From the NCBI RefSeq assembly GCF_000745015.1, contig NZ_JQNA01000002.1, positions 2,542,001 to 2,606,000 of the forward strand: a DNA stretch of 64,000 nt. Reading direction: 5' to 3'. This stretch comes from Burkholderia sp. 9120 (GTDB lineage: Bacteria > Pseudomonadota > Gammaproteobacteria > Burkholderiales > Burkholderiaceae). Shown here one piece after another: positions 46,271 to 48,704 of this stretch. The notes beneath the pieces were generated by a model, which worked only from the letters and a program-made list of their open reading frames with translations, did no database searches and was not told the DNA's origin. Numbering within the stretch: position 1 is the stretch's first letter; the number at the start of each line of letters is the position of its first letter. The position numbers and the translations under genes were made by a program.

Positions 46271-48025
46271 TCATAGTTGGTCTTGTACTCGCACGATACG
46301 CGTAGTGTGAGTCAATGGATCGCGATAGACGAGGGTGGTGCGATCGACTTCCGCGCGTTCATGCTGCACGCGGCCGTGGATCAGGAAATAGCTGGTGTTG
46401 ACGTCGAGCTGATTCGGGTCGATTGAGGCTTGCTGGGCGCCGGCGCCTTGCAGCGCGAGCATCACGTCGCTGGCGTTATGGAAGAACACGGTTTGCCGAC
46501 GTGCGACGAATGCTTGCGCGGACGACAGGCTCATGCCCGGCACGATGGCCGCGACCACTTCCGCCGAGGCGGTGTTCATGTTGACCGCCGAGACGGTGGG
46601 CAGCACGGTGACGAACGGGCGCAGGCGCGCGACGGTTTCCGGCGTGTAGCCGGGGATATCGAGCAGCGAGTCGACGCTGGTTAATTGCAGCGGGGCTTGC
46701 GCGGAGTTGTCGTTGCTGTCTTCCATGCCGGGTTTATCGGTGAACGTACCGCCGGTGGCGCCGCCTTGCGGCGTTGGGGTCGGTGCTGTGCCGTTGGTCG
46801 ACGTGATCGTCTGGAAGCGGGTCGCCGATTGGCCCAGGCTTGCGCGGACTTGCAGGGCGGTTGCTTTGGCTAGCTGGCCGCTTATGCCTAGCGAGACCAA
46901 TAGGCGCTGGTAGGAGGCGATTTGCTCCACGTTCAGTTGCATGACGCCTGGGGCCGGGCTTGAGACCAGGTTTCGCAGATTGAACTTGGATTGGGCGTCT
47001 TCTATCGAGCCTGACAGGTAGGTTTCGGCGCCCTGGGCGGAGCGGGCTTCGCCGATCTGGCCTAAGAAATCCGATAGGCGCGTTTTGGCGATGGGGACGC
47101 CCCATAGGCCGCCCAGGTACGTTATGCCCGCTGAGGTGTCGCCTTCCGAGCGCAGGATCAGGCGTGTCCAGTCCAGCGCGCCTCGCGAGACCCATTGGGC
47201 CTGGGACAGCAGGCGCTGGTTTTCTATCCGGCGGATTTGGACTTGCTGGCGCCAGAGCATGCCGGAGACCAGGATCGCTGATAGCGCGACTACCAGCAGA
47301 GCGCTGATTATGGCTACGCCGGTTTCTTGGTTTTTTCTGGTTAGGCTTGTGGTCTTGTTGTTGGCCTTTCCTTGTTTTCGCGGTGGTCTATTGGCGTTCC
47401 CCCTGTGCGGGGGGGCACCTACTTTTCTTTGCCTGCCGCAAAGAAAAGTAGGCAAAAGAAAGCGGCTCACACCGCTAACTCTTAAGTGGGCCCCGTGGTC
47501 CACCACCGGCAGTGGTGCATCTGGAATCCGTGCCCCCGCACACTCCGCGCTTGTGACAAAGCCGTCATTCGTCCCGTCTTGCACTGCGTGCTCGTCGGAA
47601 CGGCTAACCAGGAACCCCCTCGGGTTTGTTGGCGTGTTAGGGGGGCCGTCGGCTTCGCCTTGGCGTGGAGCGAAAGCACCCCGCTGGTTTTCGAAGCTGG
47701 CGGTCGGCGCGCGTAGCGGCGCCGGAGCTGATGATGGCTTTGTCACGAGCGCGGAGTGTGCGGGGGCACGGATTCCAGATGAGCCAATGGCGTGGCTGCG
47801 CGAGGGACCCGCTTCAGAATTAGCGGTGTGAGCCGCTTTCTTTTGCCTACTTTTCTTTGCGGCAAGCAAAGAAAAGTAGGTGCCCCCCCGCACAGGGGGA
47901 ACGCCAATAGACCACCGCGAAAACAAGGAAAGGCCAACACAATCAGAACAACGACAAAAACAAAACCCCCGTCCAGAAGAACGAAAACCCGAAGAGCGTC
48001 GCGGAGACAAAAAACAGAACCTCAT
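46271..48025 (-). CDS. gspK: Type II secretion system pseudopilin GspK, 5' end rearranged by a repeat insertion
   Basis: The conserved GspK body runs from about 47344 to 46271: prepilin-like TGVAIISALLVVALSAILVS, then the large domain with helix-hairpin-helix parts (DIPGYTPETVARLRPFVTVL, NMNTASAEVVAAIVPG). At the place where a native start would give the usual short leader (the codon before TRKNQETG, 47342-47344) the triplet is CTA; no ATG, GTG or TTG lies between the repeat and the cleavage site. The frame stays open across the 579-bp repeat back to ATG 48025, one base after the gspJ stop with GGAG ahead, so that start is given. It would put 236 residues before the cleavage site. GTG 47470 or TTG 47455 inside the repeat are alternatives. 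Function is uncertain. Confidence 0.7.
   Translation of the reverse strand: MRFCFLSPRRSSGFRSSGRGFCFCRCSDCVGLSLFSRWSIGVPPVRGGTYFSLLAAKKSRQKKAAHTANSEAGPSRSHAIGSSGIRAPAHSALVTKPSSAPAPLRAPTASFENQRGAFAPRQGEADGPPNTPTNPRGFLVSRSDEHAVQDGTNDGFVTSAECAGARIPDAPLPVVDHGAHLRVSGVSRFLLPTFLCGRQRKVGAPPHRGNANRPPRKQGKANNKTTSLTRKNQETGVAIISALLVVALSAILVSGMLWRQQVQIRRIENQRLLSQAQWVSRGALDWTRLILRSEGDTSAGITYLGGLWGVPIAKTRLSDFLGQIGEARSAQGAETYLSGSIEDAQSKFNLRNLVSSPAPGVMQLNVEQIASYQRLLVSLGISGQLAKATALQVRASLGQSATRFQTITSTNGTAPTPTPQGGATGGTFTDKPGMEDSNDNSAQAPLQLTSVDSLLDIPGYTPETVARLRPFVTVLPTVSAVNMNTASAEVVAAIVPGMSLSSAQAFVARRQTVFFHNASDVMLALQGAGAQQASIDPNQLDVNTSYFLIHGRVQHERAEVDRTTLVYRDPLTHTTRIVRVQDQL
47360..47938. repeat. 579-bp near-palindromic repeat element between gspJ and gspK
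   Basis: Outer inverted repeats of 119 bp (47360-47478 and 47820-47938) match with one mismatch. An inner pair of 51 bp (47518-47568 and 47731-47781) has about two. Each outer arm itself folds (CCTACTTTTCTTTGC / GCAAAGAAAAGTAGG). The ~160-bp centre is unique here. No transposase or clear target duplication; the T/G-rich flanks on both sides also look mutually inverted, so the true ends may be wider. I associate this sequence type with dispersed Paraburkholderia repeats (from memory). A MITE-like origin is inferred. Confidence 0.85.
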
Positions 48026-48026
48026 T

Positions 48027-48704
48027 TCATTCTCCGACGAGAAAAACGCGCGTCACTGGCCGCGCCAGCGAAGTAGCCCCAATACTGACCTCAAGCCCGG
48101 TAACCGACCGCGGCAGCGGCGCACTCCCCAACTGGGGAACCTTCAAATTGTTATCCGCCTCGGTAATCGCATTCTGCACATCGCCCATCTGGGTAGTCCA
48201 GCCAACCTTAGGCACATACAACCGCGCATTGATCGCCCCAACCCCACCCATCAAAGGCACAGCACTCCACCCATCGCCTTCACCACCGCGCAACGCGCGC
48301 CGCAAATCCCCAGCATTCCCCAACGGCGGCGACGCATACCGAATCACGCGTCCATTGGAAATCCGATACCGCACCACCTGCAACCGCGGCGCCGTCCCGG
48401 GCAACATCAACTGCCGCACAACCTGCAATACATTGCCCGACACCGACACCGCCGCCTGACCCGCTTCGTCGTCCGACGCGGCCTGACGCACGTCGATCCG
48501 CATCTGATCGAACAGCTGCGCAAACACGCGCTCGTCTTCCATCGCGTTCGTAATGGTCTGCCGGCCACGAATGATCTGGTCAAGCCCGCGCCACGACAGC
48601 ACGGCAATCACCGCCAGGATCGCAATCGCGACCATCAGCTCGATCAGCGTGAAGCCACGCCCGCCCGATCGGCGGCGGCGCTCAGAGCGAACGGTTCGTT
48701 TCAT
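48027..48704 (-). CDS. gspJ: Type II secretion minor pseudopilin GspJ
   Basis: A 225-aa pseudopilin. Basic leader then the cleavage site RGFTLIELMVAIAILAVIAV with Glu+5; C-terminal domain with RYRISNGRVIRYASPPLG typical of GspJ. It forms the tip complex with GspI, K and H. It overlaps gspI by 23 bases at its 5' end. Its 3' neighbour is the repeat-disrupted gspK junction. Confidence 0.92.
   Translation of the reverse strand: MKRTVRSERRRRSGGRGFTLIELMVAIAILAVIAVLSWRGLDQIIRGRQTITNAMEDERVFAQLFDQMRIDVRQAASDDEAGQAAVSVSGNVLQVVRQLMLPGTAPRLQVVRYRISNGRVIRYASPPLGNAGDLRRALRGGEGDGWSAVPLMGGVGAINARLYVPKVGWTTQMGDVQNAITEADNNLKVPQLGSAPLPRSVTGLEVSIGATSLARPVTRVFLVGE

Follow-up and report, generated by a model that had tools for sequence, protein, structure and literature searches.

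A dispersed palindromic repeat traversed in frame within the predicted cleaved leader of GspK, with a reading frame apparently held open by selection in many Paraburkholderia

Where translation of gspK begins is the question raised by the type II secretion cluster of Burkholderia sp. 9120, in which a large palindromic element lies between gspJ and the mature part of gspK. The window, a stretch of 64,000 nucleotides (contig NZ_JQNA01000002.1, positions 2,542,001 to 2,606,000), contains recognisable gspD, E, F, C, G, H, I, J, K, L, M, and N, with gspJ identified by its N-methylation motif and its position in the cluster. An earlier note, based on the letters alone, described an in-frame palindromic element at this site, and this element is real. 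The length of 579 bp and the 119-bp inverted ends given there need revision, as the present edges (47359–47939) give 581 bp and outer arms of 136 nt. The structure goes beyond chance: its transcript strand folds at −489 kcal/mol, compared with −260 ± 7 kcal/mol for 20 shuffles (z −33), it recurs in 45 loci, and its 235-bp arm has 61 matches in the genome, some of which are sub-repeats of the inner arm. This copy number bears out the description of the element as a dispersed repeat.

The other readings of the local sequence in that note also stand. Beginning at ATG 48025, the gspK frame crosses the element without a stop and continues into GspK, forming an ORF of 584 aa (46271–48025, minus strand) whose start codon (48025–48023) lies one base past the gspJ stop (48029–48027) with GGAG ahead of it, and the codon preceding TRKNQETG is CTA. 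Residues 235–578 of this ORF match the NCBIfam model T2SS_GspK (NF037980). The junction has the form of a type III signal peptide, with Gly236 followed by VAIISALLVVAL at a hydropathy of 2.63, and cleavage by the prepilin peptidase is predicted after Gly236 on the cytoplasmic face. No internal in-frame ATG is present in the leader of the window. The AlphaFold model of the ORF has a mean pLDDT of 36 and is low also in the conserved GspK domain, and so it says nothing about disorder. The features are listed in Table 1.

Table 1. Coordinates of the gspJ–gspK features in the window and of the recurrent ORF in long versions of the element.
Feature	Position	Strand	Basis or remark
Dispersed palindromic element, traversed in the gspK frame	47359..47939	-	Arm structure, genome copies, cross-locus survey
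Outer arm 1, 136 nt	47804..47939		96% complementary to outer arm 2
Outer arm 2, 136 nt	47359..47494		
Inner arm 1, 62 nt	47731..47792		90% complementary to inner arm 2
Inner arm 2, 62 nt	47507..47568		
gspJ, 225 aa	48027..48704	-	N_methyl PF07963; name J from cluster position
GGAG, putative Shine-Dalgarno of gspK, within the gspJ end	48032..48035	-	Sequence reading; relatives compared
Whole pre-GspK leader, 236 codons, ATG 48025 to cleavage glycine (GGC 47320-47318)	47318..48025	-	NF037980 model begins at residue 235
Native 5' part of leader, MRFCFLSPRRSS...	47940..48025	-	Homologous to MKFSFLSFRR... of element-free relatives
In-frame internal GTG, rival start	47468..47470	-	Equivalent to the NCBI start of P. 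bryophila P0008
Leader 3' remnant (...TRKNQETG) up to the cleavage site	47318..47358	-	
Mature GspK	46271..47317	-	T2SSK PF03934 and T2SSK_1st PF21687
Recurrent ~150-aa ORF	L114 2163-2612	-	
Recurrent ~150-aa ORF	L118 2162-2608	+	
Recurrent ~150-aa ORF	L121 1968-2417	-	
Recurrent ~150-aa ORF	L122 2626-3072	-	
Recurrent ~150-aa ORF	L134 2384-2833	+	
Recurrent ~150-aa ORF	L142 2235-2684	+	
Recurrent ~150-aa ORF	L143 2162-2611	-	
Recurrent ~150-aa ORF, broken, two frames	L119 2812-3262	+	

Related loci place the native start of gspK beside the gspJ stop. Among 210 relatives found, 80 were kept, and L047 and L049 were left out for having no gspJ in the stretch; the 81 rows read are made up of these relatives, L081 (G022), L082 (the window again), and the window itself. 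The element is absent from 53 of the 81 rows, and this alignment, which the earlier note had proposed as a check, defines the empty site. An ATG is found within −4 to +2 nt of the gspJ stop in 48 of the 53 element-free rows. For example, the empty site of L005 reads MKFSFLSFRRVGVCSFGANKKSQKTQNG followed by VAIIS, and MRFCFLSPRRSS of the window is the counterpart of MKFSFLSFRR in L005. Given such native starts in the empty sites, the element was inserted inside the leader and TRKNQETG is the leader tail. The comparison with these element-free relatives led to rejection of the idea that the element sits at the expected gspK start codon, with a native Met lost before TRKNQETG. GGAG or GGGG occurs at the same spot in most relatives, with or without the element. 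The leaders of the 53 element-free rows vary from 11 to 71 codons; this wide variation without the element (e.g., L031 and L045) suggests that the site tolerates insertions in general.

The open frame is a property of nearly all occupied loci. In the first sample, 28 rows (27 distinct) have the element, and the gspK frame is free of stops in 26 (25 distinct), with the other two frames open in none. GspK was found in 143 of 144 genomes of the same genus, and a second sample was taken of 80 regions from 79 genomes, of which 78 were readable, 48 being exact repeats of earlier loci and 30 new. The element occupies 18 of these 30, with 17 of the 18 strictly open. The choice of this sample leaned to high scores and, lower in the list, to long open frames, and the remaining 60 listed genomes were therefore added (54 readable, 15 repeats, and 39 new loci). 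No occupied locus, whether open or broken, is present among these 39; the six unread regions extend 248–271 bases past gspJ, of which about 200 are gspK, leaving no room for the element. The weak-match genomes G075 and G127 and second gspK copies, except one (G102), were left out of the survey.

Together, the survey gives 45 distinct occupied gspJ–gspK loci, which are related and not 45 independent cases. In 42 of them, the gspK frame has no stop at all between the gspJ stop and the cleavage glycine, and 43 are open when counted from the first start codon, the difference being L217, whose sole stop precedes its GTG start. Over 11441 codons of the 45 loci, the gspK frame has 9 stops and the other two frames have 389 and 367. 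In 36 of the 45, the gspJ stop is followed within 6 nt by an ATG as the first start codon, and the leaders span 67–360 codons with a median of 247. Two loci break the gspK frame, L036 with five stops and L048 with three. Both probably start inside the element, where possible start codons are an ATG 157 codons before the cleavage site in L036 and one 65 codons before it in L048. In addition, the protein record P0003, which is outside the 45, is out of frame past the element. Since these three leave the frame, some species must be able to start gspK internally.

Copies of the element elsewhere are closed. Among 21 compact copies outside gspK in five genomes, none of the 126 frames is open, and the lengths modulo 3 are spread 7/7/7. 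The gspK copies (524–989 bp in 24 loci) have a length of 2 mod 3 in 22 of 24, with L041 and L056 at 0. The gaps between gspK copies (nine pairs) are multiples of three in 21 of 27 cases, and those between three pairs of non-gspK copies, one of which is just 74% identical, in 3 of 13. For the nine gspK pairs, the neutral expectation is 22.6 stops; zero were seen by construction, as the pairs were drawn from open loci. The 22.6 figure is used here only to show that there was ample opportunity for stops to arise, and 43 of 45 is the fair count.

The peptide encoded by the leader is much freer than the frame. Differences between leaders fall 253/260/296 by codon position (p 0.14; 11 pairs, two loci used twice). 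For the same 11 pairs, dN/dS is 0.50–0.88 in the leader and 0.03–0.21 in mature GspK. Purifying selection on the mature protein is strong, and neither a non-standard start nor poor GspK expression, both raised in the earlier note, needs to be invoked. No conserved peptide was found in the leader, as M1 alone is nearly invariant before Gly236 among 18 aligned sequences. These comparisons indicate that selection keeps the reading frame and not the peptide, with the leader amino acids almost unconstrained, a pattern that would be expected of a long leader that is translated and then cut off by the prepilin peptidase. In the 24 loci measured, the leaders are 209–362 residues long and carry a net charge of +19 to +48. 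A 19-residue stretch above a Kyte-Doolittle hydropathy of 1.6 is present in 11 of these 24 leaders (up to 2.51 in L067; the maximum in the window is 0.87), and such stretches might compete as a membrane segment.

In a search of 40 genomes, the element was present in 21, namely that of the window and 20 of the 23 further genomes of its genus; all 16 genomes of other genera lacked it. Its unit is the 235-bp arm, paired to about 560–750 bp in compact copies, and the arm matches in the stretches read are mostly arm(+)...arm(−) pairs. The records list no annotated features around the plasmid copies. Terminal inverted repeats, many copies, and the lack of an open frame in the 21 compact copies are traits of MITEs; no target-site duplication was clear by eye in the flanks of the element, and no transposase was recognised in its long versions. 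The Rfam family MIR918, an miRNA family of algal origin, was rejected as an identification, since its match (47424–47874 of the window; 114 bits, E 1.5e-21) consists almost wholly of matched pairings rather than matched letters in the alignment, with a score less than half the gathering threshold. This match on a bacterial palindrome is a warning about long-hairpin models. With a 235-bp arm as its unit, the element also falls outside REP/BIME, which are defined as palindromes of 20–40 bp in the relevant section of PMC3733652. Both outer arm tips match Rfam RF02421 (Bp1_684) at 27.8 and 27.6 bits, which is below the gathering threshold of 44 and concerns the outer arm ends only. RF02421 corresponds to Bp1_Cand684_SIPHT, described in the pertinent part of PMC3521395 as an RT-PCR-tested Burkholderia sRNA candidate.

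Long versions of the element were observed as well. A recurrent ORF of about 150 aa (MSKSPKSSRT...DAIQYEKLALSAFRLIERQ) lies between or beside the arms in 8 of 13 stretches tested. This ORF matches no Pfam family and has 163 homologues; the named ones among the 120 listed are nearly all hypothetical proteins of Paraburkholderia/Burkholderia, with one "phasin". This ORF may represent the parental form of the compact element, or else a cargo that it regularly carries. A response regulator lies between the arms of a long version in L115 (2408–3085, plus strand), and a TPR/glycosyltransferase-like protein in L132 (1756–3420, minus strand). Furthermore, part of the inner arm (query 126–235) occurs in tandem units with a spacing of about 137 bp inside long versions (L119 1829–2211 and L122 3583–3963).

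At gspK, the arms of the element evolve together, because two-sided changes exceed those in shuffles: both sides have changed in 33 of 189 pairs among 13 gspK copies, compared with 20.1 ± 2.1 after shuffling, and none of 500 shuffles is as high. Moreover, the palindrome reaches past the repeat into the leader in 13 of the 44 gspK loci examined, with no more than 2 of 200 shuffles doing as well, and in L016 it includes native leader codons. These patterns suggest arm-to-arm correction and outward growth of the palindrome, as if the hairpin had copied its neighbour. In the leaders of L016 and L007, the palindrome runs into host codons, with 35 and 48 aligned bases between the flanks. As a separate observation, 12 of 14 loci from the set of 24 have the arms listed first beginning in codon-to-codon antisense register.

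The element is found between gspJ and gspK in several lineages. On the tree of mature gspK (80 rows), its distribution needs four changes, of which at least three are forced by well-supported branches; the gspJ tree (110 rows, not including the last 39 loci) also needs four, with at least two forced. L005 has no element although it lies inside an occupied clade, and TTGGCGCCAA stands at the point where the arm tips would join. The N-terminus of L005 is also found in P0003, which retains the element. This pattern suggests that the element was lost in frame in L005.

Taken together, an in-frame palindromic insertion in the cleaved GspK leader, held open by selection in many Paraburkholderia, is well supported by these comparisons of sequences, and translation of the element probably yields a very long leader that is discarded. 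Thus, the 200-plus-residue leader that the earlier note offered as one alternative has gained strong comparative support. Under this explanation, to which we give a probability of roughly 0.8 as a whole, a copy of a high-copy Paraburkholderia palindromic element would have entered the gspK leader just behind the native start at the gspJ end. Ribosomes finishing gspJ would initiate at ATG 48025 and traverse both arms of the palindrome, so that pre-GspK would carry roughly 236 leader residues. This leader has a basic character, and 13 of 24 loci, including the window, have no membrane-like hydropathy stretch; the leader would remain in the cytoplasm as the GspK helix enters the membrane, and cleavage after Gly236 would yield a normal mature GspK. 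A stop or a frameshift would sever gspK from its only well-placed start, any internal start being buried in the hairpin. The insertion would simply be tolerated, with no task for the leader itself. The extremely stable RNA hairpin is a real obstacle for ribosomes.

Annotations of GspK starts in Paraburkholderia records conflict, and they bear on where else translation could begin. A database search with the leader found 13 proteins, 11 with GspK Pfam domains and two in unnamed ENA records (P0003 and P0009), and no other genes with this leader within the size range searched. Four JGI records have full-length leaders (598–625 aa; P0001 with 625, P0002 with 604, P0010, and P0012), whereas four NCBI records start inside the element (397–471 aa; P0004, P0005 with 420, P0006 with 427, and P0008 with 397). 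A start inside the repeat, another alternative in the earlier note, thus finds a precedent in P0005, P0006, and P0008, the last from P. bryophila and beginning at the equivalent of GTG 47470, and such a start would be needed in L036 and L048 with their stops in the upstream frame. GspK would then begin at this GTG or another internal codon with a leader of about 45–120 aa, the upstream part being untranslated or a separate leader peptide. However, this leaves unexplained why the part of the frame lying over 100 codons upstream of the cleavage site (3951 codons in 24 loci chosen as open, without L027, L036, and L048) has no stops compared with 90 and 113 in the other two frames, and why the element length is fixed modulo 3. 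Moreover, the window offers no internal ATG, its internal GTG is within a hairpin arm, and JGI annotates the full length. We judge an internal start improbable. It is very improbable that the element brought its own ORF and that gspK simply received it in the right frame: long open frames are common in high-G+C DNA, but the compact copies elsewhere are closed even when their length is 2 mod 3, as in seven of them. An assembly or annotation artefact, or a decayed gspK, is scarcely credible. Repeats are prone to collapse and the annotated starts disagree, but the window's genome consists of two contigs, the sister genome G022 and several with contigs longer than 4 million bases have the same structure, and the purifying selection on mature GspK argues against decay.

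A function for the long translated leader would add to the preferred explanation of an insertion read through from ATG 48025. GspK, as the tip subunit of the pseudopilus, would have to be scarce, and the hairpin or the basic leader could throttle or time its synthesis. The palindrome is kept in addition to the frame, as the excess of two-sided changes indicates, and the element is found at this site in several lineages. However, the copies elsewhere are also arm pairs, so that correction between arms could account for the pairing with no need for a role in gspK; the length varies widely, the peptide is not conserved, and L005 has no element inside an occupied clade. Such a function is possible but rather unlikely. 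It is likewise only a tentative proposal that the palindrome has been domesticated for translational control, in which ribosomes coupled to gspJ would have to unwind a hairpin exceeding 130 bp, which would set a low GspK stoichiometry, with selection or arm-to-arm template correction keeping palindrome and frame while the palindrome grows outward into native leader codons.

Read as a leader insertion, the gspK locus is a natural experiment in which a large repeat enters a conserved gene harmlessly; as the insert lies in a discarded portion of the protein, selection would act on nothing but the frame. Leaders of 200–360 residues may be tolerated both by the prepilin peptidase and by the route of membrane insertion, and the locus raises the question of whether ribosomes traverse near-perfect RNA hairpins of more than 130 bp. 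It is also a place to watch the growth, shrinkage, and loss of a palindrome in frame.

Among the papers listed, the titles and the opening lines of the abstracts gave no pointer to this element or to any repeat in a gspK leader. In-frame palindromic repeats are already known from Rickettsia, and it is the size, the site, and the frame-only selection that look new here. The Rickettsia palindromic elements (RPEs) were reportedly described by Ogata et al. in 2000. According to the relevant part of PMC10969869, RPEs are dispersed palindromic repeats that lie in frame in protein genes and are apparently translated; they are about 150 bp long, occur in many unrelated genes, and have a conserved peptide ORF. 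The gspK element is likewise a dispersed palindrome in frame in a protein gene, stop-free in 43 of 45 loci. Unlike RPEs, it measures 0.5–1 kb, is found in one gene in many species as an insert in a cleaved leader, and has no open frame in the 21 other compact copies tested. A second parallel is the enterobacterial RU-2 (ERIC-type) repeat, which forms residues 1–30 of the predicted signal peptide in YPO1552, a putative exported protein, as stated in the corresponding passage of PMC2759123. In both cases, the N-terminus and a portion of a signal sequence come from the repeat; however, the gspK element contributes about 190 residues rather than 30, lies in the type III leader of a conserved machine, and comes with evidence of frame selection across species. 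Prepilin leaders are described in the part of PMC10191384 on this subject as variable in length, cytoplasmic, and removed by the prepilin peptidase. The gspK leaders resemble such type III signal peptides in being basic, variable in length, and ending in Gly before a hydrophobic helix, but they are mostly 200–360 residues long and mostly derived from the repeat, whereas that part of PMC10191384 mentions long leaders but gives no lengths of this order.
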